From IMG/VR virus record IMGVR_UViG_3300037246_001119, positions 1 through 32,402 of that record: DNA of 32,402 nt. One strand, written 5' to 3'. This document shows positions 2,936 to 20,968 of this stretch, one piece after another. A model generated the notes under the pieces. The model made no database searches, was not told where the DNA came from, and worked only from the letters and a program-made list of their open reading frames with translations. Both the position numbers and the translations under genes were made by a program. The DNA comes from a virus. Every line of letters starts with the position of its first letter. Positions within the stretch are counted from its first letter, which is position 1.

Positions 2936-4320
2936 CGTTTCAGGCGGTGGCCGAGATCGACAACATCGAACTCGATCTCATCCAGCACAATATCTGAGCC
3001 CTCAAAGTTTTCCATATCGAACTCCCAATAACGGGACTTGATGCCCTTTTGTAGCTTGGTGCGTTCAACCTGGGCAGCCGTTGGGGAGACTCGCAACGCA
3101 AACGGCCCGGTGGTTTTATTGCCATCAGTGCGTAACGTCAAGAATACCTGTCCCGACGAATCGAGACTCAGGTACGCGGCCAGAACACGTTTGAAATTTG
3201 ACGAACCAAAGTCCAATCGACCAGTAGATGCAATGGCATCAATGTCTGTACCGTCATCATCATCACCATCCAATAAATAAAGGCCATCGGTTTTTGCCCC
3301 AATGTAGTCATTGCCAATGCGGGCAAATGAATGGAAGTCGTGACCCTCATAGCGCGCCGGTGCGCCGGTATTCTGATTGGATACCCATGCGTAGACTTCT
3401 TCAGTGGCATCGAGCAGATAGGATTCGTCCAGCCAACCATTCAACGCCAGCCATTGCGCCAGCGCATATTCACCGTCCAGATAACCGCTGAGCGCGGTGT
3501 AAACGCTGATCGCATATTCGTCATCGAGGAAGCCACTGACCGGCAGAATTGCCGTGAGAACAAACTCGCCATCGAGGAAACCATTGAAGATTTGCTCAAC
3601 CTCAAGTTTGAACTCATCGTCAGTCCAACCAGTGAAGATCTTGAATGCTTGCAGCGTGTACTGAGCGTCTAGGAAGCTGTTTTTAGCCTCATAAATTTGC
3701 AGCTTGAACTCATCGTCCAGCCAACCTGAGAACTCATCCGGCAGGCCTTTCGCTAAGGCGTAAACATCATCAATGCCAGAGGTTAATTGCGTGAGCGATT
3801 GTAAATTGTATTCATCGTCCAGCCAGCCCGCGAGGCCAGCACCAGACTCCAACAAATAACCACTGTCGAGAAAGCCTTCGTAGACAATCGACTCAGGCAG
3901 ACTGCTTTCATCATCGAGGTAGCCGGTAAGCTCGGCCTCGATGGCAATGGCAAATTGATCACCCACATAACCGGTGTGTCCTACCGCAGCATCGAGATCG
4001 TATTCACCGTCAAGGGAACCGTTGAACTCGACCTCAATCGTGATCCCAAATTCATCGTCCAGATAGCCGGTGCTACCAAGGCCATCGGGTAATGCGTAAC
4101 CGTCCTCTAAATATCCGGTAGGCGAGGTCGTACCCGGCAGCATGTATTGGCCGTACAACAAACCGTCGAGCGGCACAGGCGCCGGCAGTGTGTACGCGCC
4201 ATCGACAAAACCATGCGGGGCCAGATAGTCGTGCGTGTACGCGCCGTCGAGATAGCCGGTTTTAGCAACACCGTTGGTCGTTAAGACCTCAAGATAGGTT
4301 TGTGTGACGCGAGCGACCAT
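2932..4320 (-). CDS. Acidic 16-residue-repeat tail protein
   Basis: A 462-residue protein. Residues 1-20 carry an ARVTQTYLEVL segment, a short motif that recurs in phage virion proteins. Residues about 22-310 are eighteen tandem repeats, nearly all exactly 16 residues, with consensus G-(Y/F/W)-(L/V)-D-(D/G)-(E/Q)-(Y/F)-x-(L/I). Unit 11 is two residues longer and a few units are degenerate (SFLDAQY, GLLYGQY). Residues 311-462 form a separate C-terminal domain (YAWVSNQNT, DGLYLLDGDDDDG, RLDFGSSNFKRV, SRYWEFDMENFEG), a type I associate with phage tail proteins. The start ATG overlaps the previous stop by one base (TAATG) and the stop overlaps the next ATG (ATGA). The acidic periodic repeat could form a beta-solenoid or bind cations; that is inference. 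The function in the virion is unknown. Confidence 0.85.
   Translation of the reverse strand: MVARVTQTYLEVLTTNGVAKTGYLDGAYTHDYLAPHGFVDGAYTLPAPVPLDGLLYGQYMLPGTTSPTGYLEDGYALPDGLGSTGYLDDEFGITIEVEFNGSLDGEYDLDAAVGHTGYVGDQFAIAIEAELTGYLDDESSLPESIVYEGFLDSGYLLESGAGLAGWLDDEYNLQSLTQLTSGIDDVYALAKGLPDEFSGWLDDEFKLQIYEAKNSFLDAQYTLQAFKIFTGWTDDEFKLEVEQIFNGFLDGEFVLTAILPVSGFLDDEYAISVYTALSGYLDGEYALAQWLALNGWLDESYLLDATEEVYAWVSNQNTGAPARYEGHDFHSFARIGNDYIGAKTDGLYLLDGDDDDGTDIDAIASTGRLDFGSSNFKRVLAAYLSLDSSGQVFLTLRTDGNKTTGPFALRVSPTAAQVERTKLQKGIKSRYWEFDMENFEGSDIVLDEIEFDVVDLGHRLKR
3391..4257 (-). repeat. Coding tandem repeat, 48-bp period (16 aa x 18)
   Basis: In-frame repeat array encoding the G-(YFW)-L-D-(DG)-(EQ)-(YF) units of the acidic tail protein. 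The repeats have diverged at DNA level but keep the 48-base period with only one six-base length change, so selection acts on the protein period. Confidence 0.8.
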
Positions 4321-5393
4321 TAGGCTCTCGACTCGTAGCCGAACTCGGCGGCTTCAACTTCGGTGACGGTCCAAGGATCAGTTGTGTCTGGATTGATTTC
4401 GTAATCTTCCATGAATATTTCAAACGATGCAGTCAAAGCCGCGTCGCCGCCATTACCAGAAGTCGCACCTTCAAAGATCACGGCGCGGAAGTTTTGCGCG
4501 GTGCCGGTGTGTCGGGCGACATTGACCACAGAAACATTGTGTATCAGTGCGCCATTGAGCGTGTCGGTGCTGGTGAAGCGGTCAATCTGAGCATCGCCGG
4601 TCGAATCATTCCAATCGGTGTCCTGATTATTCCGTGGCGCATCATCGACCATTGCAGAGTTATCGACACCGCTTTCAGGCGTGAAAGCAATCTGCGCGCT
4701 TTCCGCATCCGGCCTGAGTAACTCGACCGCCCAACGAGAACCCAAAAACGTCGCGTTGGCAGCAATCGTTCCCTGGTCATCCATCACATACAGATCGGAG
4801 ATCTCGAAATCCGCACCCTCACCAACCTCGCCAGTCTGAAACGAAATGCGGTCATAGGTGCCATCAAAATCAAGGGTATCAAGGATCGCCCACACTTCAT
4901 CGTTAACGCGCAACTCAAGCGAACCGAAGTTGTTGACGCCCTCGATTTTGAGCTCAATCTTGTATTCCGTGCCGCGGAATAAGAAGTGCTGTAGACCGTC
5001 CAGTGTTTCGGTGATGTCAGCGGAATCGAAATACTCCGCACTGGTGGTACGACTGCGGATCTGGATGCTGCCATCGTCACTAAGCCGCATGGACATTCTC
5101 GCGGTCACACCAGCCGACAACTTGAAGATCATATCGTCAAGTCCATCGTTGGTATCGAAGTCGTTAAACTTGAACCAGAAGCCGATGTAGCCAATCGTTA
5201 TTGCGGTGCCGAGATCCCGATAAAAACCCGAGTTGGATTGATCGACGCCGCCAAGGCGCACGGAACCGTTTTCGGAAGGCCCACCAGCCAACACCACACG
5301 AAGATTGTTGTTTACGCCCTCGCGGGTGTAGAGCTGATCAAAGTCCGATAGAAGGTTATAAGCAGTAAAGCCATCTGACCAAATATGCGACAC
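4320..5393 (-). CDS. LamG/concanavalin-like virion protein (paralog A)
   Basis: A 357-residue protein with a GTG start at 5393, supported by ACGGAGG seven bases upstream. The alternating beta pattern (IGYIGFWFKFNDF, IFKLSAGV, SIQIRSRTT, YKIELKIEGV, SLELRVNDEVW, FEISDLYVMDD) is typical of a jelly-roll LamG/concanavalin-like lectin fold in residues about 40-205. A C-terminal domain follows, ending in PWTVTEVEAAEFGYESRA. It is clearly paralogous to the 344-aa protein at 18477-19511: both share the (S/D)(L/M)Y(V/F)(M/L)D(D/E) strand, the TPxxG and DDxD segment, and the PW(T/S)xxEVxAxExGY C-terminus. The stop TAA overlaps the next ATG by one base. LamG folds in phages usually belong to tail or capsid-surface proteins that bind host glycans. 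The specific ligand is unknown. Confidence 0.8.
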   Translation of the reverse strand: MSHIWSDGFTAYNLLSDFDQLYTREGVNNNLRVVLAGGPSENGSVRLGGVDQSNSGFYRDLGTAITIGYIGFWFKFNDFDTNDGLDDMIFKLSAGVTARMSMRLSDDGSIQIRSRTTSAEYFDSADITETLDGLQHFLFRGTEYKIELKIEGVNNFGSLELRVNDEVWAILDTLDFDGTYDRISFQTGEVGEGADFEISDLYVMDDQGTIAANATFLGSRWAVELLRPDAESAQIAFTPESGVDNSAMVDDAPRNNQDTDWNDSTGDAQIDRFTSTDTLNGALIHNVSVVNVARHTGTAQNFRAVIFEGATSGNGGDAALTASFEIFMEDYEINPDTTDPWTVTEVEAAEFGYESRA

Positions 5394-6200: not shown

Positions 6201-7463
6201 TTAAATAAATGCGCCGCCCCGAGCGGTTTCCAGAGCAACATAATCGGCGGCTGCGTAAGTATTCAGCTCGCCCTCCCACAGATCAGCAACGATCTGCCGA
6301 ATCCCTTTGTATTCACGCCAGAGCATCGTGCCGTAGCCGTATTCCGCTACTGCAACGCGATCCTGCATGATGTTCAAAACTTCCCCGTTCTCGCCACCAA
6401 ATACGATGCCGCGTTTTGAGAACCAGGCCACCGCATCGAAGTTTGGAATGTTGATGCCCGTTCCAAAGACACCGCCGTATGGCAGCACTTCGCGCTGGTG
6501 AAACTGCGGCGTATCGGCGCCGGAAATCCAATATGTTTTGTCAGAACAGACATACAAGCCATCATCCACCGCCTTGACAATCGTGATGCGTTTCGGGAAC
6601 TGCAAGAAGCCCTTCATTGGTTTAACCAGTCCATAACGCAAGGGCTCGGTAAACCATAGAATGTTGTTGTTGGCTATGTAGATCCTGCCGTTGTGATATT
6701 CGAGAATGTCGCCCGGTGGTGGTGCCATCCCAAACTGAGTTTGCAGACGAAACGCGGCCGTGTTGGAAACCCGGTCAATCTCGTAGTGCGGAGCGGCCGG
6801 GTGAAGATCGGCCATGCGGTACAGGCCTTCGCCATCCATGTGCGACACATAGACGCGGATAAACGCCGTTCCCGGTGGTGAGGCCGGGAAATCCGACAAG
6901 AAGATCGAGCTGTTATCAGCGGCAACCTCAATGGTCTTTGCCAAGCCAGTACCCGATTCCTCGCCACTGTCAGCGATGTAGGTGATCGCAACCTGATAGG
7001 TTCCGGCAAATAACTCACCCGAGATCCCTTGTGTCAGGTTCGGCTGTGATCCGGGGCCAATCATGCCCCACGGCACATCGTTCCCATCGGCCAGCATCAA
7101 CCCGGTCTGTATGCCATTGGTGTAGTAGGTGTTGCCGTTGAGATCCAGATAACTCATGCGCGTATTGCCAACATTGGTTCGCACCAAACGCGGGGTATAG
7201 GTGCCGGTCGGATATTCAATCAACTCCCACAGACTACCGGACTCAACAAACAGCGTTCTTGAGAAATCATCGCTTGACCAGAGCGTACCTTTGACAATGG
7301 TTCCGGAGTAGATCTTAGTCGAACCGCCCCGCCTGGACAGCTTGCCAGCATCGTCAATGTCGTAATTGACGCAGCGGCGCAGCGCATCCACAGGCAACGA
7401 ATCCGGGCGCAAAATGGTGTTCAGGCCGTCAGGCCAGCCCTCTAATTTAATGGGAGTCGGCAT
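6201..7463 (-). CDS. Propeller-like tail/neck protein (P22 gp10-like candidate)
   Basis: A 420-residue protein coupled to the upstream gene by a one-base TAATG overlap at 7463. The N-terminus (GWPDGLNTILRPDSLPVDALRRCVNYDID, then GKLSRRGG) matches the opening of a phage protein family that begins G..N......LP..alr.a.N.d....G.l..R.G. This family includes P22 gp10-like packaged-DNA stabilisation proteins. The middle has repeated beta blades with aromatic motifs (MSYLDLNGNTYYTNG, YQVAITYIADSGEESG, DILEYHNGRIYIANNNILWF, VDDGLYVCSDKTYWISG, AWFSKRGIVFGGENGE). These suggest a beta-propeller or blade-rich fold. The role would be in the neck or tail hub just below the portal. Family assignment is from motif memory, not a search, and other tail-hub proteins remain possible. 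Confidence 0.65.
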   Translation of the reverse strand: MPTPIKLEGWPDGLNTILRPDSLPVDALRRCVNYDIDDAGKLSRRGGSTKIYSGTIVKGTLWSSDDFSRTLFVESGSLWELIEYPTGTYTPRLVRTNVGNTRMSYLDLNGNTYYTNGIQTGLMLADGNDVPWGMIGPGSQPNLTQGISGELFAGTYQVAITYIADSGEESGTGLAKTIEVAADNSSIFLSDFPASPPGTAFIRVYVSHMDGEGLYRMADLHPAAPHYEIDRVSNTAAFRLQTQFGMAPPPGDILEYHNGRIYIANNNILWFTEPLRYGLVKPMKGFLQFPKRITIVKAVDDGLYVCSDKTYWISGADTPQFHQREVLPYGGVFGTGINIPNFDAVAWFSKRGIVFGGENGEVLNIMQDRVAVAEYGYGTMLWREYKGIRQIVADLWEGELNTYAAADYVALETARGGAFI

Positions 7464-7910: not shown

Positions 7911-10556
7911 TCAGTCGCAATCTGCGTCCCAAGTCTGTTCTGCATCGGCCTTCCAAAGCGTCAGTGACTTCTCGGCGGTCCACAGAACCGGGGCGCAATC
8001 TGCAAACCACTTGCATTCCGGATCAATGTCACGGAACGCCTCACCGATAATCGCGGCTGGCTTCCACACTGGCTGAATCGTTCGGTGGATATCTCTGCGG
8101 TAGATAACCGGCACCGTCCAACGCGCATCGCCAATGATGATCGAGGGCGGGAAAATGCGACTGAGCTGTAGCAGCGGTGGTGCAAAGGCCTTGAAGGTGG
8201 TCGCGCGCCGACGAAGGGTAGGTACAGCCAGATAAGCGGTATATGGAACCGCGGCCGGGAAGCTGGTTGTGCTGACCGTTTGTAGCGAACGATCGAACGA
8301 AACCGTGAGCGGATCCACCCTAAACGGTGCCGGGTATTGACCGTCAAAAAAGCCCGCTGGCGTTGGTGTCCACTGATCATGCTGCGGCAGTTTGGCAAGT
8401 TGCCGTTCAAACGCGGTGCGGAATGCCGGCGGTGGTGGTCGCGGCCAGCGGAAGCCCGGTGGCGTTGGTGGCGCTTGTGGCGGATATGGCAGATCCCTGC
8501 GCTGGCGCTCAAATTCCGATCTGTTTGCCGCCAGCACCGGCGTAAATGCTGTGTACGGGACCACCGGTAAGGTCGCGGCCGGGTATTCAGCCGGGATTGG
8601 TAGTGTCTGCAGGCGACGATCAAATCCGCTATGAATGGCCTCTACGCGCGCCGAACCGGGATAAAAGCCCCATTGGAAGCCAAATGGTGTGGCTGGATAC
8701 TCGTTCAGTTCCAGCTTTTGCAACTCCCGCTGGAACGCGGTGCGATTTGCCTTGAGTACCGGTGTTAAGGCGGGGTAATCGTCTGCCGATACGGGCGTCA
8801 GCGGATATTCGTCAATCTCAAGGACGGTGATCTGCTGGCGCTCAAATTCAGCCCGGAACGCGGAGACACGCGCCGAACCCGGATAGAACCCGTCGAAGAA
8901 GCCAGCCGGGGTTGGCGGTCGTTCGTCCAGCTCAAGCGGAACCTGTGCCTCGCGGTGATACGCCGAGGGGATCCGTTTCAGCCGTATTGGTGCTGGAAAG
9001 AACCCCTCGAAGAAGCCCGGCGGTGTCGGCGGTCGTTCGTTGAGCTCCACGCCCTGAACGGTGCGTTTGAACTGCCAGATAAAGACCGGCGGCAGTTGAA
9101 ATGCCACCAGTGGCGCGGTGCTTGGTGGTGTCGCCGGCCGCTCATCCAGCTCAAGCGCCTGCAGGGTTCGGTCAAACGATATCCGCAAGGACTCGACCGC
9201 CTTGGAACCCGGATAGAACCCCCATTGGAAACCGAAGGGCGTCGGTGGGTATTCCCACAACGGCGGGATTGTCTGTAGCGATCTGTCATAGACAATAGAG
9301 ATCGAATCAACACGGAACGGCGCGGGATAATGACCCTGGAAAAAGCCCGGTGGCGTCGGCGCAAATTCATCCAGCTCCGGTAATGCTTGCAGCGCCCGCT
9401 CTGCGGAGATCTCAATAGGCCGAAGCGTTAATGAGGCCGGCCATTGACCCTCAAAGAATCTCGGCGGCGTGACCTCGTATTCATCGAGTTGCGGTAGCTT
9501 TTGCAGCTCACGCTCAAACTCGGTGATGATGACTTTAAGTACCGGCGTGTAGGCGGTAAACGGCTCCGGTATTATCGGCGTCGGCGTAAATTCATCCAAC
9601 TCTGGCAGCGCCCGCAGGAATCGTTCAAAGGCAACACGATTAGCCTTGAGTGCGGGTGTTTCAGCGACTACGGACGTTGGCGGCGGCGGGGTTAATGGAT
9701 AATCCGGATTGTGTGCGATGGGTTGCAGCGCTCGCTTGAAGGCACTGCGAAACGGCGCCATCGCTTTTGCATTGGTTTCCGGTACTTCTTGTGAGCGCGG
9801 TGTGCCATAAATAATCGCCGCAGTCAGGTGCGTAATTCGTGTCGTTGGCGGTGCCTGGTTGTAGAGAATGCCAGCGGTCAGATGCGTAACGCGCGCCGTA
9901 ATGATCGGTAATTGTTCAAATTCATCCAACTCAACAGACTGAATCTGGCGCTTGAACTCAGTCCGGTTGGCCTTCGGCACTGGTATGTAGGCCGCCGGCG
10001 GCTCGGCAAACGAGGGCAAGGTAATCAGGATCGGCTCGACCGCCGTATGATCGAAGGTAGCGCCGCCGGTGGTCAGTCTAAGCTCTATAGATTCGCCGCC
10101 AGCGGTCAGCTCGGCACCACGTAAATTGAACGTGAAATACAACTCATGTTCGTTGCCACCGGTGATATTCGTACCGATCAGCCCTTCAACCTCATCGAGT
10201 ACCGAAGTCTGGAAAGTCTGTGCGCTGGTGGAAAGTCGCTCGGTCGTGCTGGTGGCATCCTCGGTGTCGCCGGATGCGGCGCTGCGAAGGTTTGAGCTGG
10301 TGGCGTTGACAGGGGCAAAACCGCCGGCGCCGTTGACTTCGTATTGAAGCTGCCAATCACCGGATGCTGACATTTGGCCTGAATTGCCGACCTTGAAGAT
10401 GATGGCGTAATCATCATCCAGCACTAGCTCGATGGTCGTATCTTCTGAGCCAAGCAGCGTCCACAGCTCATGCGAGCCTTGGTCAATAGGCACCGCCGCA
10501 GCGGATCCACCAACGATCTGCCAATGTCTAACGCTAGGTGCGGCCGGTGAACTCAT
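7911..10556 (-). CDS. Giant Pro/Phe-rich repeat virion protein, 881 aa
   Basis: An 881-residue protein; ATG 10556 overlaps the stop of the preceding small gene (ATGA). Residues about 1-180 are a separate beta domain (HWQIVGGSAAAVP, TTIELVLDDDYAIIFKV, WQLQYEVNGAGGFAPV, NLRSAASG, ERLS, HELYFTFNLRG, SIELRLTTGG), a layout I have seen in other phage tail proteins. Residues 220-250 carry two copies of an R(V/I)THLTAxI(L/I)Y motif. Residues 290-768 are thirteen repeats of about 37 residues (PxGFF(E/D)G..(P)...F.R.LQ.L...(D/N)EYP.T), with a fourteenth degenerate unit after. The C-terminus (CKWFADCAPVLWTAEKS, ending DCD) is shared with the 1098-aa protein upstream, so the two genes are paralogs. There are no membrane segments. 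A long fibrous or solenoid-like tail component is inferred. Confidence 0.85.
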   Translation of the reverse strand: MSSPAAPSVRHWQIVGGSAAAVPIDQGSHELWTLLGSEDTTIELVLDDDYAIIFKVGNSGQMSASGDWQLQYEVNGAGGFAPVNATSSNLRSAASGDTEDATSTTERLSTSAQTFQTSVLDEVEGLIGTNITGGNEHELYFTFNLRGAELTAGGESIELRLTTGGATFDHTAVEPILITLPSFAEPPAAYIPVPKANRTEFKRQIQSVELDEFEQLPIITARVTHLTAGILYNQAPPTTRITHLTAAIIYGTPRSQEVPETNAKAMAPFRSAFKRALQPIAHNPDYPLTPPPPTSVVAETPALKANRVAFERFLRALPELDEFTPTPIIPEPFTAYTPVLKVIITEFERELQKLPQLDEYEVTPPRFFEGQWPASLTLRPIEISAERALQALPELDEFAPTPPGFFQGHYPAPFRVDSISIVYDRSLQTIPPLWEYPPTPFGFQWGFYPGSKAVESLRISFDRTLQALELDERPATPPSTAPLVAFQLPPVFIWQFKRTVQGVELNERPPTPPGFFEGFFPAPIRLKRIPSAYHREAQVPLELDERPPTPAGFFDGFYPGSARVSAFRAEFERQQITVLEIDEYPLTPVSADDYPALTPVLKANRTAFQRELQKLELNEYPATPFGFQWGFYPGSARVEAIHSGFDRRLQTLPIPAEYPAATLPVVPYTAFTPVLAANRSEFERQRRDLPYPPQAPPTPPGFRWPRPPPPAFRTAFERQLAKLPQHDQWTPTPAGFFDGQYPAPFRVDPLTVSFDRSLQTVSTTSFPAAVPYTAYLAVPTLRRRATTFKAFAPPLLQLSRIFPPSIIIGDARWTVPVIYRRDIHRTIQPVWKPAAIIGEAFRDIDPECKWFADCAPVLWTAEKSLTLWKADAEQTWDADCD
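8253..9689 (-). repeat. Coding repeat array in the 881-aa protein (about 110-bp period)
   Basis: Thirteen in-frame units encoding 33-38 residues each. Some units are close copies (two PFGFQWGFYPGS units and two PAGFFDG(F/Q)YP units), while others have lost the GFF core. Near-identical short DNA blocks recur between this array and the array in the neighbouring 1098-aa gene, offering substrates for recombination. Confidence 0.8.
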
Positions 10557-10930
10557 TCAGTGCCATCCTCACGTATCGGGTCAGTGGCAGACTTGTGATC
10601 TAAGCCCGGCTCGGTTTTAGCTTGTTCGATGATCTCTTGGTAGCGATCAAACTGAATCCAGCGTCCGGTCAACACGGCACGCACGCCACCGGGACCGATG
10701 CCTTTGCCAAGATGCTGCAACAGATCCATGTATTTATTCGTGCCGTGCCAGCCGATATCGTCAGAATAAATATAGATATCCCATTGATGCAGCACCACGC
10801 GGCCAACGTCTTGAGAGCCCTTGGCCGGATCGTTCCACACGATTGCCTGCACGTTTTGCGCGGGCGCGTTCTCTGGCTCGCCTTCATAGATCGACCGATC
10901 GCCATAATAGATTCTGAAATCTAATCGCAT
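10553..10930 (-). CDS. Small conserved-type phage protein between the two repeat giants
   Basis: A 125-residue protein with ATG 10930 preceded by GGGAGG ten bases upstream. The start overlaps the end of the 1098-aa gene by ten bases, and the stop overlaps the ATG of the 881-aa gene (ATGA). The sequence RIYYGDRSIYEGEPENAPAQNVQAIVWND, then WDIYIYSDDIGWHGTNKYMDLLQHL and GRWIQFDRYQEIIEQAKTEPG, fits a small phage protein type I recall: an N-terminal YxDGS.Y......P...VQ segment, then D.Y.......W.G.D..gl.d.l, and ending in a Y..i...a helix. No function is known to me. Its conserved position between two paralogous repeat genes suggests that a giant-gene plus small-gene unit was duplicated or split here. 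Confidence 0.7.
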   Translation of the reverse strand: MRLDFRIYYGDRSIYEGEPENAPAQNVQAIVWNDPAKGSQDVGRVVLHQWDIYIYSDDIGWHGTNKYMDLLQHLGKGIGPGGVRAVLTGRWIQFDRYQEIIEQAKTEPGLDHKSATDPIREDGTE

Positions 10931-13900
10931 ATCGGGTCAGCCTCCCACGTTATCCAAGTGCTGTCGGCAGTCCAGAGGGTCGGCGCGCATTCAGCAAACC
11001 AGATCTTGCAATCCTCATCGTGCGGTATGAATACCGGCTTACCAATAATCGCAGACGGATCCCATACCGGTTGCAGCGAGCGCGTGATATCGCGGCGATA
11101 GATTGGCATAGCCGGCCACATCGCCATGCCTTCGATGATGCTTGGCGGCGTTTCCGGATACTCGTTGTGGACCGGCGGGACCAACAGGCTCCGACTGAAT
11201 GCACTCTTGTTGGCGTCCTTGACGCGGAAGAATGCGGTAAGGCCCGGCACCGGTGGAATCTGCGCCCATTCGTCGTGCTGCGGCAGTGTTACAAGGTGGC
11301 GCTCGAATGCACGATTAAGTGGTTCTACACGCCTCGATCCGGGCCAGAAGCCATCGAAGAACCCTGCTTGCGTCGGCGGGTAGATCGGGTTGTGCGCAAG
11401 CTCTTGGCGCGCGCGCGTGAACGAGACATTGAACGACTCGACACGCGGCTGCGGCGGTGTCGGTGCGGGTGTTTCGGGTCGCTCATCGAGTTGCGGCAGT
11501 AATTGCAAACGCCGTGCGAACGCGGTTCGATGCGTTGGCATAGAGGGTCGCGGCCATCTGAATCCCGGTGGTGTTTCGGGACGCTCATTCAGTTCCAGCG
11601 TTTGTAAGGTGCGTTGATACGACCAGCTAAATTTAGCAACCGGCGTAAAGGCCGCGTAATCCTCGGCCGATACCGGTGGCGGTGGATAGACGTTGATCTC
11701 AAGCGGCGTCTGCAGCACACGCTCAAAAGAAACCTTGAACGACTCGACGCGCTTGGAACCCGGATAGAAACCATCGAAGAAACCAACGGGCGTCGGTGGG
11801 CGCTCGTTCAGCTCTAACGGAACTTGCGATTCACGATGATAGGTAATCGGTATGCGTTTTAAGCGAACCGGGGCCGGGAAAAAGCCCTCGAAAAATCCCG
11901 GTGGCGTCGGTGGTCGTTCATCCAACTCAACGGCCTGAATGTTGCGCTCAAACGAGATCCGGTTGGCTTTCAGTACCGGTGTTAGGCCCGGATAATCTTC
12001 TGCAGATACCGGTGTCTCAGGATATTCAGGCGGTATGCCAAGGATCTGCAGGGTACGAGTGAACGCAACCCTGTGTGTTGGCATTGGCACCGGTGCCGGC
12101 CAATGTCCTTCAAAGAAGCCCGGCGGCGTAGCGGGATACACATGCGGATTGAGGACGCGCTGTGCTTCACGATGGTAAGTAACCGGGATCCGCTTGACCC
12201 TGAATGGAGCCGGGAAAAATCCTTCAAAGAAACCGGGCGGCGTTATGCTCCACTGATCATGCGGTGGTAGCGTCTGCAGCGTTCGATCAAAGCTAACTTT
12301 GAGCGTCGGGAAGGGTTTCGACGCAGGCCAGAAGCCTTCAAAGAATCGTGGCGGGGTCGGCGGCCGTTCATTCAGTTCCAGAGGGCTCTGCGATTCACGA
12401 TGATAGGTCAGCGGGATCCGCTTGAGGCGAACCGGCGCCGGGAAGAATCCCTCAAAGAATCCCGGTGGTGTTTCCGGATATTCATTCAGCTCAAGCGCTT
12501 GCAGCGTCCGTGTAAAGTCAACCCGATTCGCTTTCAATACTGGCGTTAGCGCCGGATAGTCCTCGGCAGAAACCGGCGTTTCTGGATAGACAGGCGGGAT
12601 CAGTACCGCTTGAATTACTCGAGTAAATTCGATCCTGAACGTGGGTGGCAGTTTCGAGGCCGGCCAGAACCCGTCGAAGAAGCCTGCGGGTGTGGGTGGA
12701 TACACATGCGGATTCAGTACACGCTGCGCCTCGCGTCCATACGTAGTTGGTATGCGTTTGACACGGAAAGGTGCGGGGAAGAAGCCTTCAAAGAAACCGG
12801 GCGGCGTTGGTGGTCGCTCGTCAAGCTCGATACGTTGAATCGTTCTTTGGAACGACCAGGTAAAACTATCAATCCGCTCGGCCGCCGGATAGAAGCCAGC
12901 AAAGAAGCCCGGTGGCGTTGGTGGATATTCGGGCGGTATTGCAAGGACTTGCAACGTGCGCGTAAACGATACCCTGAACGTCAATACTGGCGTGTAGCCC
13001 GCGTAGTTCTCGTCCGATACCGGTGGCGGCTTGTAGCGATCCAACTCCGGTATCTTCTGCAGAGCGGTGTCGAACGAGACAAATAGCGATTCAACCGCTT
13101 TGGATCCCGGCCAGAACCCATCAAAAAAGCCTGCTGGCGTCGGTGGCCGCTCATCCAATTCCAGTGGTCTTTGTGCTTCGCGCCCGTAAGTAACCGGGAT
13201 TCGTTTCAGTCTGATCGGAGCCGGGAAGAATCCTTCAAAAAAGCCCGGCGGCGTAGCGGGATAAATCGGATTGTGTGCCAGTGTTTGCAGGGTGCGCGTA
13301 AACGACACCTTGAAAGTGGGCATTGGCGGTCGCGGCCATCTGAACCCTGCAGGCGTGGCCGGGTAGTCCGGATTGTGTGCCAGCTCGCGTCGAGTGCGAA
13401 CAAACTCAACCTTGAAGGTCGGGAATGGCGGTCGCGGCCACCTAAAGCCGGGCGGCGTTACTGGACGTTCATCGAGCTGCGGTAGCGTCTGGATCTGTCG
13501 TTGGAACGCAGTGCGGTTCGCTCTGAGCAGTAGATCGAGCGCGGCGAACGGGAATACGGCCGGCGGTGTCGGCGGGTATTCCCACAGTGGCGGCAGCGAT
13601 TGGATCTGCCGTTTGAATGATGTTCGGAATGTCGGCGGTGGCCGATGGGAAGGCCATTGGCCTTCAAAGAATCCGGGTGGTGTTGGCGTGAATACGTCGA
13701 GCTGTGGAAGTCTTATTAGTCTCCGGGCAGTTGACGTATCGCCAGTGATATAGCCCCATTTTTTCTTTTTGCCTTTTTTCGGCGGGTTTGTTTCCGGGTG
13801 TCCTTGGCTTTTTGGTGCGCGGTATAAGACCTGTACGGTCAGGTGAGTAATCCGTGCCGCTGGTGGCCCCTGGCCGTACAGCACGTTCGCGGTCAGGTGC

Positions 13901-14217
13901 GTGATCCGCGTCGTTAATGGCTTGTTGTAATGGAACGGACTCGGGATCCGCTGGCGGCGTATGTCGCGCCGCTTGATCGAGGTCGCCGGATCTACGGCTG
14001 CAATAAAGAACGGGACCGCCGGTGTCGCCGGATACTCGGGGTTGTGCGGGTTTTCCTCGGGAACACGCCGATGCGTGGCGTTATCGGTGCGCTTGAAATA
14101 CGGGGTCCAAGCAGAAACCGGCTCCCCCGCTGGCGCGGGGGGAGCGGTATCAAATGCAACCGGTAGCCTCTGGATCTGGCGCTGTTTGCGCCAAAATACC
14201 CTAAAGTAAGAGGCCAC
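10921..14217 (-). CDS. Giant Pro/Phe-rich repeat virion protein, 1098 aa
   Basis: A 1098-residue protein. The first possible start after an in-frame TGA is GTG 14217, which lacks a clear ribosome binding site, so the start is less certain than the body. Residues 1-100 are basic and Pro-rich. Residues 104-132 hold two ITHLTxxVLY motifs, and KKGKKKK follows near 147. From residue 180 to 1023 there are 23 units of 33-39 residues plus a terminal degenerate one. Consensus: PPGFF(E/D)G(F/H)(F/W/Y)P(A/G)......(S/T)(F/Y).R.(L)Q.L.(L)(D/N)E(R/Y)P.T. Units also form a higher-order order: PAP(I/V/F)R(L/V)KRIP type, then DGFWP type, then PVSAEDY type. The C-terminus CKIWFAECAPTLWTADSTW is shared with the 881-aa paralog. 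A long fibre or solenoid in the tail is inferred. Confidence 0.85.
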   Translation of the reverse strand: MASYFRVFWRKQRQIQRLPVAFDTAPPAPAGEPVSAWTPYFKRTDNATHRRVPEENPHNPEYPATPAVPFFIAAVDPATSIKRRDIRRQRIPSPFHYNKPLTTRITHLTANVLYGQGPPAARITHLTVQVLYRAPKSQGHPETNPPKKGKKKKWGYITGDTSTARRLIRLPQLDVFTPTPPGFFEGQWPSHRPPPTFRTSFKRQIQSLPPLWEYPPTPPAVFPFAALDLLLRANRTAFQRQIQTLPQLDERPVTPPGFRWPRPPFPTFKVEFVRTRRELAHNPDYPATPAGFRWPRPPMPTFKVSFTRTLQTLAHNPIYPATPPGFFEGFFPAPIRLKRIPVTYGREAQRPLELDERPPTPAGFFDGFWPGSKAVESLFVSFDTALQKIPELDRYKPPPVSDENYAGYTPVLTFRVSFTRTLQVLAIPPEYPPTPPGFFAGFYPAAERIDSFTWSFQRTIQRIELDERPPTPPGFFEGFFPAPFRVKRIPTTYGREAQRVLNPHVYPPTPAGFFDGFWPASKLPPTFRIEFTRVIQAVLIPPVYPETPVSAEDYPALTPVLKANRVDFTRTLQALELNEYPETPPGFFEGFFPAPVRLKRIPLTYHRESQSPLELNERPPTPPRFFEGFWPASKPFPTLKVSFDRTLQTLPPHDQWSITPPGFFEGFFPAPFRVKRIPVTYHREAQRVLNPHVYPATPPGFFEGHWPAPVPMPTHRVAFTRTLQILGIPPEYPETPVSAEDYPGLTPVLKANRISFERNIQAVELDERPPTPPGFFEGFFPAPVRLKRIPITYHRESQVPLELNERPPTPVGFFDGFYPGSKRVESFKVSFERVLQTPLEINVYPPPPVSAEDYAAFTPVAKFSWSYQRTLQTLELNERPETPPGFRWPRPSMPTHRTAFARRLQLLPQLDERPETPAPTPPQPRVESFNVSFTRARQELAHNPIYPPTQAGFFDGFWPGSRRVEPLNRAFERHLVTLPQHDEWAQIPPVPGLTAFFRVKDANKSAFSRSLLVPPVHNEYPETPPSIIEGMAMWPAMPIYRRDITRSLQPVWDPSAIIGKPVFIPHDEDCKIWFAECAPTLWTADSTWITWEADPICD
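11149..13680 (-). repeat. Coding repeat array in the 1098-aa protein (about 110-bp period, higher-order)
   Basis: Twenty-three in-frame units, most 34-38 residues. Three unit types recur in the same order at units 5-7, 9-11, 12-16 (with two extra units) and 17-19, so larger blocks of about 330-550 bases appear to have been copied as a whole. The same type order occurs once in the 881-aa gene (units 7-9). Confidence 0.8.
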
Positions 14218-14234: not shown

Positions 14235-14702
14235 TTAGCCGCCGATTTCGCGGTAAATCAGGCCGTAGCTGAAATTCATCGAGCCGCTTGGGGCAACATC
14301 GAGTCGAATACCAGCGAGCTGCGACGGAGAAATAACGATAACTTCATCGTCGTTCGCCGGTGTCCACAGCCAACCAGACAGGACGTTGAAGCCCTGCGTG
14401 ATATAGATTCCACCAGAATACGTTGGCTCAATGGTGAAGTCGGTCTTGACCACGGCGGTCGATGGAACATCGCTAGTGACCAACGGGAACGGCAACGGCG
14501 CGGTAAAGGTCGTACCCGTACCCGTTGTGGTGATGTCCTCGACTTTTGCGCCGAGGTTCTCTGAGGTATCGAAGTCGCTTTGACTGATCCACATACGCTC
14601 AAGCGTAACGATCAGGTCGGCCGCCGCAGAAATCTCAACAAGCGTCTTTGCGGTGGTTTGCGCTTGGTTTCCGATAGATGCGCTGTATAGTCTTCCAATC
14701 AT
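14235..14702 (-). CDS. Small beta-rich virion protein, unknown
   Basis: A 155-residue protein. ATG 14702 has GGAGGG eight bases upstream and overlaps the preceding stop (ATGA). The sequence begins MIGRLYSASIGNQAQTTAKTLVEISAAADLIVTLERMWISQSD. It continues with alternating beta strands (TTFTAPLPFPLVTSD, TVIEP-like DFTIEPTYSGGIYITQGFNVLSGWLW) and ends NFSYGLIYREIGG. The pattern of an early strand with A..L.vt.eR.wi.qs and a final surface strand resembles small decoration or tail-accessory proteins of phages. I cannot name the family. No cysteines, signal peptide or membrane segment. It lies just upstream of the giant repeat gene, with 17 bases between them, so a tail-associated role is plausible but inferred. 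Confidence 0.7.
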   Translation of the reverse strand: MIGRLYSASIGNQAQTTAKTLVEISAAADLIVTLERMWISQSDFDTSENLGAKVEDITTTGTGTTFTAPLPFPLVTSDVPSTAVVKTDFTIEPTYSGGIYITQGFNVLSGWLWTPANDDEVIVISPSQLAGIRLDVAPSGSMNFSYGLIYREIGG

Positions 14703-15061
14703 CGAGCTGCCCTCCGGTTATGCTCTAACTGCCAATCATCTGCTGTATCGGCCTTTCGCAAAAGCGCAGCGCCGATTTGTCGTGCTTCATTTGGTGGCAA
14801 GTCTATACCAACCCCGTTGATATTAAAAACAACTACATCACCCTTTTCTGCTTGTTGAGCCAGCCTAACCAACTGAAATCCGACAGGGTGAACAGTCGTG
14901 GTCAGAAAGGGCAGCCCGGCTCCGTCAATGAATACCACAACATAGGGTCCGGTTGCACGGACAGCTATCACAACCCCTTTAGGAATATCAAGAGGACCGA
15001 GCTTTCTTAGCTCGGTTTTCATAGCGTTATTGGGGGCCTGATATGTATTTATTTTGGGCAT
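14699..15061 (-). CDS. Small unknown protein, start uncertain
   Basis: The open frame runs far into the upstream oxygenase gene, but the likely start is ATG 15061 (120 residues, with GGAAG six bases upstream). An alternative is ATG 15022 (107 residues), four bases after the oxygenase stop but without a ribosome binding site. The protein reads MPKINTYQAPNNAMKTELRKLG, then strands IPKGVVIAVRATGPYVVVFIDGAGLPF, a VHPVGFQLVRLAQQAEKGDVVVFNINGVGIDLPPNEARQIGAAL segment, and a charged tail. The middle resembles a compact alpha/beta domain with an LPPNEARQIGAALLRKAD helix. No known family recognised. The end overlaps the next ATG by four bases. Confidence 0.65.
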   Translation of the reverse strand: MPKINTYQAPNNAMKTELRKLGPLDIPKGVVIAVRATGPYVVVFIDGAGLPFLTTTVHPVGFQLVRLAQQAEKGDVVVFNINGVGIDLPPNEARQIGAALLRKADTADDWQLEHNRRAAR

Positions 15062-15521
15062 CGCGCACTTCCATGAGTAGGTGGATCCGCTCGGAGTCGC
15101 CATTATTAAACGATTCATGCGGGATTGAGCGATCAATCCGATAAATGCCGCCTGGTTGCAAGCAAAAATCGTGCTGTCGAGCGCCCTGCCACACACGGTT
15201 AATGCACTGGTCATTATTCAGCAGCACGATATGGTAGGTGTTCCACGGATGTGCCTCGTCTACATGCTTGTGGATATTGCCGCCCGGACCAAGGCGCAAG
15301 AAGAACGCCGATTGCCAGATATCCACCGGCCAGCGATCGGTCAACTCAGGCTCTTTTTCCAGTGCCGGGCGACCATCAAACGAGGTCGAGTAATCGGTTT
15401 TCTTGCCCTTGTTGATGGCCCATTCCACGCTGCGCGCGACAACAATGGCTCTGGCGCGAAAGGCATTGGAAACCTCGCCCACCTTGGCGTAAAAGCCCTC
15501 TTTTGGGATTTTCTTTTTCAT
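15027..15521 (-). CDS. Asp/Asn beta-hydroxylase-like 2-oxoglutarate/Fe(II) oxygenase
   Basis: A 164-residue protein; ATG 15521 overlaps the propeller gene stop (ATGA). The core reads FFLRLGPGGNIHKHVDEAHPWNT, then YHIVLLNNDQ, then LQPGGIYRIDRSIPHESFNNGDSERIHLLMEV. This supplies the metal triad of the double-stranded beta-helix oxygenases: His86-x-Asp88 and distal His135, with Arg145 (S-E-R-x-H) as the expected 2-oxoglutarate ligand. The R-L-x-P-G-G-x-I-x-x-H-x-D and P-H-x-x-x-N spacing best matches the aspartyl/asparaginyl beta-hydroxylase family (PF05118-like), although this protein is small and nearly all catalytic domain. Family members hydroxylate Asp, Asn or Pro side chains or small molecules using 2-oxoglutarate and O2. 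It is embedded among virion genes, so modification of a virion or host-surface protein is an attractive but untested role. Confidence 0.7.
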   Translation of the reverse strand: MKKKIPKEGFYAKVGEVSNAFRARAIVVARSVEWAINKGKKTDYSTSFDGRPALEKEPELTDRWPVDIWQSAFFLRLGPGGNIHKHVDEAHPWNTYHIVLLNNDQCINRVWQGARQHDFCLQPGGIYRIDRSIPHESFNNGDSERIHLLMEVRDAQNKYISGPQ

Positions 15522-17779
15522 CGAGATCCGGTCTTAACGCTCAGTTGTTCCTCATCGAACAAGGGCTCAAACGGGTACAGCTCTATTTCGTTGTACATCG
15601 TTTCCTCGTTGTTTATCCCGCCGCCAGTATCAGCGTAGATAACGCTCAGAACAATAGCCGCCTTACTGAGAAGTACGCTCGCGCTTGCATATCGCAGCGT
15701 AATATCACTCACAAACACAACAGGCGTATCCCACGTTGCGCCCTGATCCTCGCTCTTGGTGTAGTAAAGATCGAAGGAAGTCGCGCTCATAAACACTTGA
15801 TGAATAACGCCGTGGCCGTCATGCACAAAAGCGTGAGAGTCACCATTGCCTAAAACAAACGGCTCGACGCCAGCAGTATCGGCATAGCCGGTGTCCAACA
15901 CAACGTCATTACTGCCATTGACCGTCGCCTGGCAATACACGCGCTCATCAGTAGTTGTTTCACGGAAGCTGGCCCACAGCATTCTGACGGTGCCATCATC
16001 GTCCCATGCAATCGGTGGTTCTCTGGCGCCGTTGCTTGCCGTTCCGGTATTAATGGCGTCGGTATCAACAGCACTCAACCCGTTCGACACCGGCTCCATC
16101 GTGCGCGCCTGCAGATCCGACGTTGCGGTATTCGGGTCTGGATCCGTCGCCGTTTGTCGCAGGAAAAAAATGTGCATATCATCGGTGAACGGATCTTTGA
16201 CAATGCCGGGGCTGACGTAATGAACGTCGCCAGCGGCATCGAGCGCGATTGGGCCGCCCCATGTGCCACCGGTACGCACGTTAGCATCGACGCGCTCCTT
16301 ATCACCGCCCATGTTGCGCCCGGTTTCGCCCCGGTACACCACGACAATATCACCATCGGATCGAACCGCAATTGAGCAGTGTGGCGCCGATGGGGGGTCG
16401 CCAGTAAGCAAGTCGATTTGTTCAGCAACTACACCCCACACTTCGGCGTCCATATCGAAGGTGTGATAGAGCACCTGAGCGGTCGCGTCACATGAGGCGA
16501 TGTGAATAAGATCACCGTCTTGTACACAATCCATAAATTGCAAATCAGTGGGATGATCAGGCTGGTTTCCAGCATCCAGTTGTTCCCACGGCGCTGGTAC
16601 ATACGGATCGCTCGACTTCAACGCAAGGATCATACTGGACTCAACGCCGACGCCTTCGGTCAAGAAAAAGTAATCGCCATCACTGGCCCGAAATATGGGC
16701 TGGTTGCCGGCGACGGTTTCGCCTTCAGCAACAATTCGGGTCGGCAAACGTGTGTGGTAAGTAAGGCGCATCTGCAGGAAGTCAACACTGACGTTGGCCG
16801 CTACACCAAGCGATTCCGCGCCAACAAAAAATCCAAAATCAGGATCTTGAACATCGGCTACGGTTACATAATCTTCAGCCCAACGATCATTAGCGTCACC
16901 AGACCCATCGGTTTGCGGGGTCGTGGTGATGAGGGCAAGGTCAATGTGTCTATTGACGGCAATACCGTCGCTATCATCGGCCAAGATCAGCAATACGGGA
17001 ATAAGACGAGAATCATTGACATCATCAAAATAATCACCGACTCGGATTTCTATGCCGTCAATGGTCGCGTTGTTCGGAATCTCGCTAAAATCGAAGTTGG
17101 TGGCCGCAAGCCCATTCGAGAAAGAAATGGCAGCGCCGAGAGCGACCGTAGCTTCATTGCCATCATCGGCTTTGACATTATCCGGATTTACCCAATTTAC
17201 TGAACCGCCGGCTACGGTTCGATTGCCAATCACGGTGCCGGGGAACTTCCAATCGGTTACGAGGACATAAAAAATCCGCATTTGCAGCGAGTCAACACTA
17301 AACACAGTGGCGCCCGCGCTGATTTGCGTAAACCCAACGAAGCATCCGAAGTCTGGATCTTGAATATCTGCAAGCGTCCAAGTTTCTCCCCACAACTCCG
17401 TTTGTAAAAGGTTTTCGTCCGTTTTTGGGAGCGTGGCTACAAGGCCGTATTCAATCCTATTATCATCGGCACCGTCAGTATTGTCTGCTTTGATAACTTT
17501 TACTGGAATCAATATAGGGTTATTGGCGCTAGTATCTACAGAATACCCACCAACCCGAACATGGATCCCTAAGATTTGGGCGTTGACTGGCAAATCACTA
17601 AAATCAAAATTAGATCCAGCCAAACCGCTCGTTTGGTCGCCTGCTCCAGTTAAGGTCGCGGTCGCAACATTACCGTCGTCCCTAGTCGCGTTATGCTCAT
17701 TCGACCAATCAGCGTCAGAACCAGCGATAGTACGATTGGCAACCATTGTGGCGGGAAACTTCCAATCGGAAACTAGCAT
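15518..17779 (-). CDS. Sialidase-like propeller tail protein with duplicated N-terminal domain
   Basis: A 753-residue protein coupled to the methyltransferase-like gene (TAATG). Residues about 4-171 and 175-341 are tandem copies of one beta domain. Both have DWKFP, N-R-T-(I/V)-A-G, DDGN-A-T, F-D-F-S, I-x-G-I-x-(V/I)-R-V-G, the QDPDFG(C/F)FVG block, and a final (S/F)LQMR(I/L) strand. Residues about 345-735 look like a six-bladed sialidase-type propeller (IVVVYRGETG, GGTWGGPIAL, MHIFFLRQ, VRMLWASFRE). There is one clear Asp-box at 676-683 (SEDQGATW), the S-x-D-x-G-x-x-W loop of sialidases and related propellers. No complete sialidase active site (arginine triad) can be confirmed by eye. A glycan-binding or receptor-binding tail protein is the best reading; enzymatic activity is unproven. 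Confidence 0.75.
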   Translation of the reverse strand: MLVSDWKFPATMVANRTIAGSDADWSNEHNATRDDGNVATATLTGAGDQTSGLAGSNFDFSDLPVNAQILGIHVRVGGYSVDTSANNPILIPVKVIKADNTDGADDNRIEYGLVATLPKTDENLLQTELWGETWTLADIQDPDFGCFVGFTQISAGATVFSVDSLQMRIFYVLVTDWKFPGTVIGNRTVAGGSVNWVNPDNVKADDGNEATVALGAAISFSNGLAATNFDFSEIPNNATIDGIEIRVGDYFDDVNDSRLIPVLLILADDSDGIAVNRHIDLALITTTPQTDGSGDANDRWAEDYVTVADVQDPDFGFFVGAESLGVAANVSVDFLQMRLTYHTRLPTRIVAEGETVAGNQPIFRASDGDYFFLTEGVGVESSMILALKSSDPYVPAPWEQLDAGNQPDHPTDLQFMDCVQDGDLIHIASCDATAQVLYHTFDMDAEVWGVVAEQIDLLTGDPPSAPHCSIAVRSDGDIVVVYRGETGRNMGGDKERVDANVRTGGTWGGPIALDAAGDVHYVSPGIVKDPFTDDMHIFFLRQTATDPDPNTATSDLQARTMEPVSNGLSAVDTDAINTGTASNGAREPPIAWDDDGTVRMLWASFRETTTDERVYCQATVNGSNDVVLDTGYADTAGVEPFVLGNGDSHAFVHDGHGVIHQVFMSATSFDLYYTKSEDQGATWDTPVVFVSDITLRYASASVLLSKAAIVLSVIYADTGGGINNEETMYNEIELYPFEPLFDEEQLSVKTGSR

Positions 17780-18477
17780 TACGGCACCAGATACCTTTGA
17801 CCATCGCGCGAGATAACCTCGGAACCGATAGCCAGTGTTTGCAGATCCGCTTGCGAGCGCGCGGCCGTACCACCGTAAATCCAGATCAGGCGTTGCGCGC
17901 CACCAAAACCGTTGCCCGCGTTTCTGGCGTTGACAATCTCCTGATCGGTCATGCTGTCATCCACGATATCTTCATAGATCACGACCGAGGGCCAGTTGCC
18001 ACCGAGCGCGGCGCGAATGTCTTGGCGCAGGGCATTGGTGGACATATCGTTTAGCAACACAAGGATGTCGGCGCGCGGCTGCGCGTCGTAGATATGCCCC
18101 ATGAGTTCAAGACCGCGACCACTATCCGGATCCAGACCCACCAGCGTAATTTGTGCGCGTAGCTCGGTTTCCTCGGTGCCGGTTTGTTCGGCGGCGATGT
18201 AGTCCGAGATATCAATGCCAACGGTGGTGGCTGACGTTTCGGCAATGAAGGCGTCCAAGCCCCAACCAAAGCCAGCGCCAACGAGACAAACGTGCTCGGT
18301 GGATGCAATGTTTAGGATCGGTGCGAGCCTAGCCCACATCGCCGCCAGAACTGGCTTCATCGCCCATCGGTGATAATGCACCTTGACTTCACGCCGCCCG
18401 CTCGGGTGGCCGCCGAAATTGCGCTCCACGCGCCAGCGGTAGGCCTCATCGTATTGGGCTTTTGTCCAGCCCGCCAT
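17779..18477 (-). CDS. SAM-dependent methyltransferase-like protein
   Basis: A 232-residue protein. The open frame extends upstream, but ATG 18477 overlaps the stop of the preceding LamG gene by one base (TGATG), matching the coupling seen across this operon, so that start is chosen. Residues 63-73 (VCLVGAGFGWG) are a class I Rossmann motif I for S-adenosylmethionine binding. TTVGIDIS at 85-91 ends beta-2 with the expected acidic Asp89 for the ribose. Later strands ADILVLLND and PSVVIYEDIVDD continue the alternating fold, and the N-terminal HYHRWAMKPVLAAMWARL is helical. There is no DPPY-type catalytic motif, so DNA methylation is not indicated. Such genes occur among virion genes of several phages. 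The substrate here is unknown; with the neighbouring oxygenase it suggests virion protein modification. Confidence 0.65.
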   Translation of the reverse strand: MAGWTKAQYDEAYRWRVERNFGGHPSGRREVKVHYHRWAMKPVLAAMWARLAPILNIASTEHVCLVGAGFGWGLDAFIAETSATTVGIDISDYIAAEQTGTEETELRAQITLVGLDPDSGRGLELMGHIYDAQPRADILVLLNDMSTNALRQDIRAALGGNWPSVVIYEDIVDDSMTDQEIVNARNAGNGFGGAQRLIWIYGGTAARSQADLQTLAIGSEVISRDGQRYLVP

Positions 18478-19511
18478 CAGGACTGTATCCTGTAGCCGGC
18501 CTCCATCGCGTTTACTTCCGCGGTTGACCACGGATTCGCGTCGGTTGGATGATCCTCGAACACGGCAATTTCATACGCATACGCAGGATCAAAGCTCGGT
18601 GCAAAATCAGCACTCTGGCCCTCGGTGACGCCATCGTGCGCCTTTAAGCGAACATCGCGCGCGCCCGAGTTTTCAAGTCGAAACATGCCATTGACTTGTA
18701 CCGCGAATACGGTCGAGGGAATGTTGACCAGATTATCCATTGCAAAGCGATCATCGTCATCCACCACTCCCGATGAATTGAAAGTCGTATCATCATCCGG
18801 CGTGGCTTCGTCAACATTTTCCTGATTTGCACCGGCCGAAGGCGTCCATTGTGCCTCGGCGCCCACGCCGCTCGGATTGAGCGTTTCTACAATCGAATCC
18901 CCGAGCCTGGCATTGCCCGGAGCAGTGCCAAGCTCATCGAGGAAGTACATATCATCGAAGTAGAAGGGGCCGCCGGCAGCGTTCGTCCAGCCGCTGAAGC
19001 GTATCTGATCGACCTCGCCGGCAATGCCGGTATTGCGGGTATCGGCCGGGCCGTAATCAATCCAGCCACCTTTCTTGCCGTTGACAAATACTTCGATGGT
19101 GCCGACCGAATCATCAATGAAAAATCTGCATTCGAGGTAGTGCCAGATGCCGGGCGTAATGGACTTGACCGAGACTTGTCGATCTATGGTGCCGTGTTCC
19201 AGCAGCAGGCGATTGGACGTATCAAGGTTGAGCGACACATGGCCGCTACTGCCAGCGCCCGTTTCATCCAAGCGAAAGATTTCAACCTCAGTGTTGGGGG
19301 TGTTGTCGTGCTTGAAGCCGAAACCAAGCACACCGGGATTGGTGGTTGGCACATCAAGAGTTAGCGTATCGGACGAACCCAGAGAAATTGAACTACCGGA
19401 CGGATCGCGCCCGGCCTGCAGGAAATTCGGCGTACCAGTACGGCCCCAAATGCCGGCAAAGTCCGTCAGTTTGGCGTAATTCTCAAAACCCTCGACAAAT
19501 AAGATGGTCAC
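18477..19511 (-). CDS. LamG/concanavalin-like virion protein (paralog B)
   Basis: A 344-residue protein with a GTG start at 19511, overlapping the previous stop (GTGA) and preceded by GAGG seven bases upstream. It opens LFVEGFENYAKLTDF, then shows jelly-roll strands (GVLGFGFKHDN, VEIFRLDETG, HVSLNLDTSNRLLLEHG, WHYLECRFFIDDSVGTIEVFVNGKK, VDQIRFSG, FYFDDMYFLDELG). In the LamG/concanavalin family W-x-x-(L/V)-E-(C/I)-x-(F/V) followed by VxVNG is typical. The C-terminal domain (PDDDTTFNSSGVVDDDDRFAMDNL, then AYEIAVFEDHPTDANPWSTAEVNAMEAGYRI) matches paralog A at 4320-5393. Two copies in one virion could decorate different places or bind different glycans. Function beyond structural or adhesive role is inferred. 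Confidence 0.8.
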   Translation of the reverse strand: MTILFVEGFENYAKLTDFAGIWGRTGTPNFLQAGRDPSGSSISLGSSDTLTLDVPTTNPGVLGFGFKHDNTPNTEVEIFRLDETGAGSSGHVSLNLDTSNRLLLEHGTIDRQVSVKSITPGIWHYLECRFFIDDSVGTIEVFVNGKKGGWIDYGPADTRNTGIAGEVDQIRFSGWTNAAGGPFYFDDMYFLDELGTAPGNARLGDSIVETLNPSGVGAEAQWTPSAGANQENVDEATPDDDTTFNSSGVVDDDDRFAMDNLVNIPSTVFAVQVNGMFRLENSGARDVRLKAHDGVTEGQSADFAPSFDPAYAYEIAVFEDHPTDANPWSTAEVNAMEAGYRIQS

Positions 19512-20188: not shown

Positions 20189-20965
20189 CTAGAAAAAGTT
20201 TGTGGTAACGCGGCGTCCTAATTTATGTTCTCTGCGCCTTAATGCTTCAAGATCAGCAGAAGGGCGCTCGCCAATCCGCTCATCAAACAGACCTTTGTGT
20301 ATGCCTGCAAGGTCAGGGTTCTCAGTCTCGGCATCGCGTTTCAGGTAGGCGCGAAACATCATCCAATCGAGCATATCGTATTGATACTCGTCACGGACTT
20401 CCAGTAGCGTGTGTCGTAGCGGCCAAGACAGCCTGTTTATCGGCAACCGGTAGGTGGTCAGGTGAAGGGTGCCAGCCACACTTGGAACTCGCCAGAGTCT
20501 AAATTGTTTTTCTTCGGTGAACTCGACAAAGAACTCGACAATGCCCTGTCCGGTCGCATTGCCCTCAAGATCCCACTCGCGGTGGTGATCGTCCATCCAG
20601 CGCGGCGTTTTCTTGATAACAACATATTCGTCGGCGGTCGCATCCTCAACAAATTTCATGCGGTCGATTTTAAGAATGCGTTTGTCGTAGGTGTAGGACT
20701 GTACCCCGGCGGTCACGGTAATGTGATTGATGGCAACGCTTGTGTGCTGATCTAGGATGCCGCCAATGCGGCGCACTACTTCGGTTTGCGCCTCGTCGGC
20801 GTACTGGCAGATCTCGTCGTTTTTCCACAGCAATCCAGAATCGTCGTTTGTCCACGGTTTTGAATCATCGACAATATCACCGGGCAAATCATCGACGCGC
20901 TGGCGAAATAGCGTGGCGAGCTGCTCAAGTGTTAAGGGTGGTTTCAGTTCGCCTGTGAGCGCCAT
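20189..20965 (-). CDS. Phage adaptor/connector-like protein
   Basis: A 258-residue protein. The open frame includes a TTG at 20968, but ATG 20965, with GGAG six bases upstream, is the better start; it begins three bases after the previous stop. After an N-terminal helix (LTLEQLATLFRQRVDDLPGD) it has the sequence LLWKNDEICQYADEAQTEVVRRIGGILDQ, a beta pair (INHITVTAGVQSYTYDKRILKIDRM), a longer beta region (FFVEFTEEKQFRLWRVPSVAGTLHLTTYRLP) and a C-terminal helical part (DEYQYDMLDWMMFRAYLKRDAETENPDLA). The order LW.(N/D).Ei..Y..eA......r, then itv.aG...Y.l......i......, is that of phage adaptor or head-completion proteins that sit below the portal. The gene position after the capsid genes supports it. 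Family name not confirmed. Confidence 0.65.
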   Translation of the reverse strand: MALTGELKPPLTLEQLATLFRQRVDDLPGDIVDDSKPWTNDDSGLLWKNDEICQYADEAQTEVVRRIGGILDQHTSVAINHITVTAGVQSYTYDKRILKIDRMKFVEDATADEYVVIKKTPRWMDDHHREWDLEGNATGQGIVEFFVEFTEEKQFRLWRVPSVAGTLHLTTYRLPINRLSWPLRHTLLEVRDEYQYDMLDWMMFRAYLKRDAETENPDLAGIHKGLFDERIGERPSADLEALRRREHKLGRRVTTNFF

Positions 20966-20968
20966 CAA

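Follow-up and report, generated by a model that had tools for sequence, protein, structure and literature searches.

Two paralogous genes of a podovirus, A and B, encode long arrays of a 37-residue repeat rich in Pro, Phe, and Arg between conserved ends, and in related phages homologous ends at the same locus enclose repeat arrays of unrelated sequence. This repeat family, together with the swapping of entire arrays between these conserved ends, is the notable result of the analysis of the window (the whole stretch of DNA analyzed, a 32,402-base IMG/VR virus record, to which positions refer unless another contig is named). The reading favored here, with a probability of roughly 55%, is that A and B are modular fibers or tethers attached to the virion, encoded in the fiber zone of a Bcep22/KPP25-related podovirus, and that their central array serves as an exchangeable spacer.

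Locus and architecture of the array genes

The window derives from a Caudoviricetes podovirus of the Bcep22/KPP25/F116 assemblage, with a P22-like portal (Pfam match P22_portal), a PF13252-type capsid (Pfam match Phage_capsid_3), an Hc3-type head closure, and a conserved gene order. Connector/virion-associated genes flank A and B on one side and the head-closure gene on the other, which is the tail-fiber position of Bcep22-like phages; the latter carry three to four tail-fiber genes followed by a head-closure gene, and mass spectrometry of JC1 virions has detected the fiber protein gp56 (PMC9144972). The tail-region setting claimed for gene A in a first-pass annotation is therefore supported by gene context, as a tail-fiber locus. 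The features of the variable zone are as follows (labels beginning with L denote contigs of related phages):

20189..20968, minus strand: connector-type structural protein of the head and packaging class (phrog_399), at the upstream edge of the variable zone
18477..19511, minus strand: phrog_2448 protein, with similar genes that immediately precede the array gene of L015/L029, L032, and L043
14235..14702, minus strand: conserved 155-aa gene directly upstream of gene A, 84-94% identical in L010 and L011
10921..14217, minus strand: gene A, repeat-array protein of 1098 aa (pI 9.65; 17% Pro, 8% Phe)
13819..13908, minus strand: neck motif R[VI]THxTxxVLY of gene A, two copies, residues 104-133, with a homologous motif in the L015 and L032 proteins
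11128..13731, minus strand: array of gene A, residues 163-1030, 23 contiguous ~37-aa units and a partial one, from self-similarity and the unit profile
10924..11001, minus strand: C-terminal W.AD motif array of gene A, residues 1073-1098, 9-residue spacing, with homologous C-termini in L015, L018, and L037
10553..10930, minus strand: small 125-aa gene that separates A from B; its protein has the N-terminus MRLDFRIYYGD, and a homologue lies at L011:1484-1888
7911..10556, minus strand: gene B, paralogous array protein of 881 aa whose N-terminal ~180 aa form an unrelated domain
9807..9896, minus strand: neck motifs of gene B, residues ~221-250
8313..9740, minus strand: array of gene B, residues 273-748, 12 full units and a partial one, including one K-G-V block (see below)
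7914..8009, minus strand: C-terminal W.AD array of gene B
6201..7463, minus strand: homologue of head closure Hc3, at the downstream edge of the variable zone

The JC1 tail-fiber cassette (gp56-gp60) resembles A and B in its place within the module and in having several fiber-like genes in a row, but the JC1 fibers lack sequence homology to A and B, which have very long repeat arrays. No homology to A or B was found among the proteins compared from JC1 (including gp56/57/59), KPP25, and Atu_ph08, and the fiber zone is thus common to these phages by position and not by homology.

The open frame of gene A comprises 1098 codons (14217 down to 10921 on the minus strand) and begins with GTG. Its exact start position is uncertain, since the GGAG-like sequence directly adjoins this codon instead of lying 5-9 nt upstream; the frame start is also kept in L010 and L011. 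Gene B, which adjoins gene A and ends in a C-terminus like that of gene A, carries a paralogous array that is missing from the first-pass annotation. The N-terminal domain of gene B is also found in an array-free frame (L011:1876-2496), beside the homologue of the 125-aa gene, an arrangement that suggests domain shuffling. Similar-looking N-termini are seen in the 125-aa protein (FRIYYGD), gene A (FRVFW), and the array protein of L018 (FRVFFGH), and these perhaps represent a shared attachment strand.

The 37-residue unit and its age

The self-similarity of gene A peaks at shifts of 38, 112, 150, and 75 residues (-0.07 to -0.42 per position, compared with a mean of -0.96, an SD of 0.07, and a maximum of -0.63 in the shuffled control). 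A profile built from the units delimits 23 contiguous units of 33-38 aa (residues 163-1007) with partial units at both ends, in good agreement with the ~24 copies of 37 residues claimed earlier. The column consensus (n = 92 units) is F/Y-x-R(99%)-x-L-Q-x-L-...-Y-P-P-T-P-P-G-F-F-x-G-F-W-P-..., with Arg3 at 99%, two Pro columns at 92% each, and the first position occupied by Phe (80%) or Tyr (14%). The first half of the unit (FxRxLQxL....YPPTP) is almost invariant, and the second half falls into a few recurring kinds, namely K (RLKRIP), G (GFFDGFWPGS), V (PVSAEDYxxxTPVLKANR), R (GFRWPRP), and others.

The fourfold recurrence of units with KRIP, GFFDGFWP, and PVSAEDY in a single order, also reported in the first-pass annotation, was recovered as four K-G-V blocks in gene A (at residues 306, 456, 643, and 756), the third of which has GFFEGHWP as its G unit:

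12967..13302, minus strand: K-G-V block 1, residues 306-417
12517..12852, minus strand: K-G-V block 2, residues 456-567
11953..12291, minus strand: K-G-V block 3, residues 643-755
11620..11952, minus strand: K-G-V block 4, residues 756-866

Across six related arrays the K-G-V order occurs seven times (four in gene A and one each in gene B, L010_A, and L011_B), compared with 0.63 expected and 0 of 20,000 shuffles (P < 5e-5). Because this order is common to paralogues and genomes, the K-G-V blocks are ancient, predating both the split between A and B and the split of the three genomes that carry the repeat.

At the DNA level, no tandem repeats were reported in gene A by Tandem Repeats Finder, and the best identity between any two of its units is 71%. 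Agreement between units at four-fold degenerate sites in identical residues is 0.37 (0.34 expected from gene A codon use), and within the K-G-V blocks it is 0.386 (307/796), also near expectation. This saturation of synonymous sites, together with the lack of a detectable DNA repeat, indicates that the units are old and maintained by selection at the protein level rather than recent copies. Recent duplication or slippage is rejected on the basis of the same saturation, the low maximum identity, and the Tandem Repeats Finder result, and the proposal that blocks of units had been copied as wholes, read as a recent event, does not stand. Some duplication within arrays has occurred too, since the nearest relative lies in the same array for 31 of the 92 units (15.7 expected).

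Turnover and exchange of arrays among relatives

The repeat was found in only three other IMG/VR contigs (L009/L028, which represent the same virus as the window, L010, and L011). The alignment with L009/L028 extends over 15,815 nt at 99.96% identity (6 differences), and the array length is identical. A contingency-type slippage array needs near-identical DNA repeats, and none are present in gene A; length change through slippage finds no support either in the low DNA identity of the units or in the equal array lengths of two near-identical assemblies of one virus. Of the six differences from L028, five lie in a 55-nt stretch of one unit (12865-12919), and each of these five is synonymous. Gene conversion from another unit was considered as a source of this cluster and rejected, as the genome holds no donor unit; the cluster may instead stem from a sibling strain that contributed a patch, or from an assembly choice.

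Between species, the arrays are more dynamic. In the small sample of three genomes with the 37-aa repeat, the numbers of full units in A and B are 23 and 12 in the window, 17 and 16 in L010, and 10 and 14 in L011, and the order of units differs as well, while neighboring genes are 80-94% identical. The comparison of repeat number among relatives proposed in the first-pass annotation thus reveals variation in number and order and not constancy. Colinearity among genomes is kept over the first ~150-200 residues and at the C-terminal end, and the middle of the array is scrambled. Close to the C-terminus, nt 2523-2848 and 3067-3165 of gene A are contiguous in L011_A (nt 1293-1621 and 1618-1716), and the intervening gap of ~218 nt corresponds to gene A units 933-1006 (74 residues, two units) that are absent from L011_A.

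Further relatives were found by searching with the neighboring Hc3 and connector genes. At the same locus, L015/L029 (Hc3 91% identical), L032, and L037/L043 encode a protein whose repeat is 14 residues long (DHQIPIEW...), and L018 (Hc3 60%) encodes a Pro-rich protein with a period of ~34; both repeats are unrelated to the 37-aa unit in sequence and period. The ends of these proteins were compared using profiles from the ends alone of A/B-type proteins, with shuffled controls. Although the motifs are short and the profiles small, the C-terminal W.AD array was recognized in L015, L018, and L037 (domain scores 20-29 versus a shuffled maximum of 5.2), and the neck motif was recognized in L015 and L032 (best scores 14.0 and 9.3 versus a shuffled maximum of 4.0). 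The C-termini of L015 and L018 were also matched in an independent search of whole records. Five copies of the neck motif can be made out by eye in L043, between a presumably LamG-like N-terminal part and the array. These sequence comparisons show that the whole array has been replaced by unrelated repeats between homologous ends at one locus. The array gene is not needed for assembly, as A and B are absent in some relatives (e.g., L019/L020, Hc3 56%, where the connector and a 104-aa-type gene are followed by Hc3).

A modular fiber or tether as the candidate function

A and B each have two conserved ends, the N-terminal part, which bears the R[VI]TH..VLY neck motif (some members have a globular domain ahead of it), and the C-terminal W.AD array. 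If A and B are modular fibers or tethers, these ends would be the working parts, responsible for attachment and contact. The 37-residue array would then most likely be a spacer or stalk, possibly a stiff shaft, that keeps one end off the tail or neck. The length and make-up of the array would shift over evolutionary time as whole units and whole arrays are gained, lost, or traded between related phages, and not by frequent slippage within a population. Such proteins would be present in the virion, as the first-pass annotation asserted for gene A, elongated (possibly trimeric), and in contact with the host; the polarity of the ends and the stiffness of A and B are likewise predictions of this model.

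Database searches revealed no homology of A or B to a proven fiber, adhesin, or virion protein. The gene A repeat contains no known domain from Pfam, PHROG, NCBIfam, or the PDB, and the Pfam domains it fails to match include BACON and other Ig-like tandem repeats; its best hits, a dynein regulatory complex subunit (E 0.0087) and MbnC (E 0.002, far below its cut-off), were deemed composition noise. Relatives of gene A were absent from 50,697 phage records, plasmids, and GTDB genomes, and a search of GTDB genomes with Hc3 returned nothing. AlphaFold modeling of four units from 20 aligned rows gave a pLDDT of 61 and a pTM of 0.15 (as a monomer, from which a trimeric fiber would escape), and the full gene A protein, from six rows, gave 31.6 (also a monomer model); overlapping 5-unit windows had also been aligned in 61 rows, but MAFFT slid the windows and that alignment was left out. 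Neither model contains a confident fold in the array, both are too poor for a fold search, and confident secondary structure is likewise lacking there; the models thus speak neither for nor against a shaft. These results agree with the first-pass statement that no described fold was known for the repeat, which is a unit new to Pfam, PHROG, and NCBIfam with a fibrous fold as a candidate.

The same results bear on a possible, if rather unlikely, alternative, in which the array is an intrinsically disordered Pro-rich tether or decoration, either a flexible chain bearing the end modules or a weak surface binder that acts via aromatic residues and Arg, and in neither case a regular stalk. The Pro content (17%), the lack of confident structure, and the replacement of the array by unrelated repeats are all consistent with a passive linker. 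However, strict conservation of columns at saturated synonymous sites and a conserved order of units argue against disorder, and so does an aromatic content (13.5%) that is odd for a plain linker. A further reading, a new class of fibrous appendage with a fixed neck and tip and at least three unrelated exchangeable shafts, in which the 37-residue unit would adopt an undescribed regular fold with a K-G-V super-period of ~112 residues, is speculative and must be considered unlikely.

Podoviruses eject internal proteins, and A and B could in principle be long basic proteins that are packed in the head and enter the cell with the DNA. Their genes do lie among head and connector genes, and basic pI values (9.2-10.2) are seen in gene A and several homologues, but gene B is acidic (pI 5.11), the variation in unit number and order, the exchange of arrays, and the absence from some relatives suit surface appendages better, and the arrays are accompanied by phrog_2448 genes and by N-terminal domains presumed to be LamG-like, all of which makes this role improbable. 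A non-virion, moron-like late protein (e.g., a secreted decoy or host-surface modifier) would fit a zone that is an accessory insertion missing in L019/L020 and that also carries an aspartyl/asparaginyl beta-hydroxylase-like gene, yet hardly fits a collinear position inside the morphogenesis module, from connector to Hc3, where relatives hold tail fibers, and is likewise improbable.

The fiber or tether reading may be compared with known systems. BACON repeats in crAss-like phages form tail-associated tandem arrays of old, divergent, and stable units gained by duplication and transfer (PMC6949934). The arrays of A and B share with them a tandem arrangement of divergent old units in a phage protein whose tail association is, for A and B, presumed from its locus; however, the BACON unit is an Ig-like domain of known type that occurs up to eight times in a row, whereas the A/B unit is 37 aa long, contains no known domain, and is repeated up to 23 times. 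Replacement by unrelated arrays within shared ends is a further difference from BACON. In the adenovirus fiber, a shaft built as a triple beta-spiral from short repeats of variable number connects a conserved tail with a conserved distal end. The likeness to A and B is offered as an idea only, as the A/B units are ~37 aa, Pro-rich, and without sequence similarity to it. If the fiber or tether reading is correct, the locus provides a natural case of whole-shaft exchange, in which a single phage locus accommodates unrelated repeat arrays between shared end modules, and it becomes testable whether a fiber shaft is a generic spacer or a carrier of specificity. It would also mean that arrays can stay old and constrained at the protein level while the number and order of their units turn over between species.

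Several other genes of the zone deserve mention. Proteins of the phrog_2448 family are multiplied within it (18477-19511 and 4320-5393), and L043:2892-6998 apparently encodes four in tandem before the array gene. The beta-hydroxylase-like gene (15027-15521, minus strand; PF05118, E 8e-12) lies inside the fiber zone and overlaps the next gene (14699-15214), and similar proteins are encoded in L010 (apparently two adjacent) and L011. A 250-aa protein of the zone (17779-18531, minus strand) contains a GAGFGWGLD...GIDIS motif that, we presume, resembles those of SAM-dependent methyltransferases. A 462-aa protein (2932-4320, minus strand) has a 16-residue repeat of its own (GYLDDEYALP...); a putative neck motif in it (ARVTQTYLEVL) was unsupported by the neck profile, and its C-terminal part matches the KPP25 virion structural protein gp06 at 33% identity.
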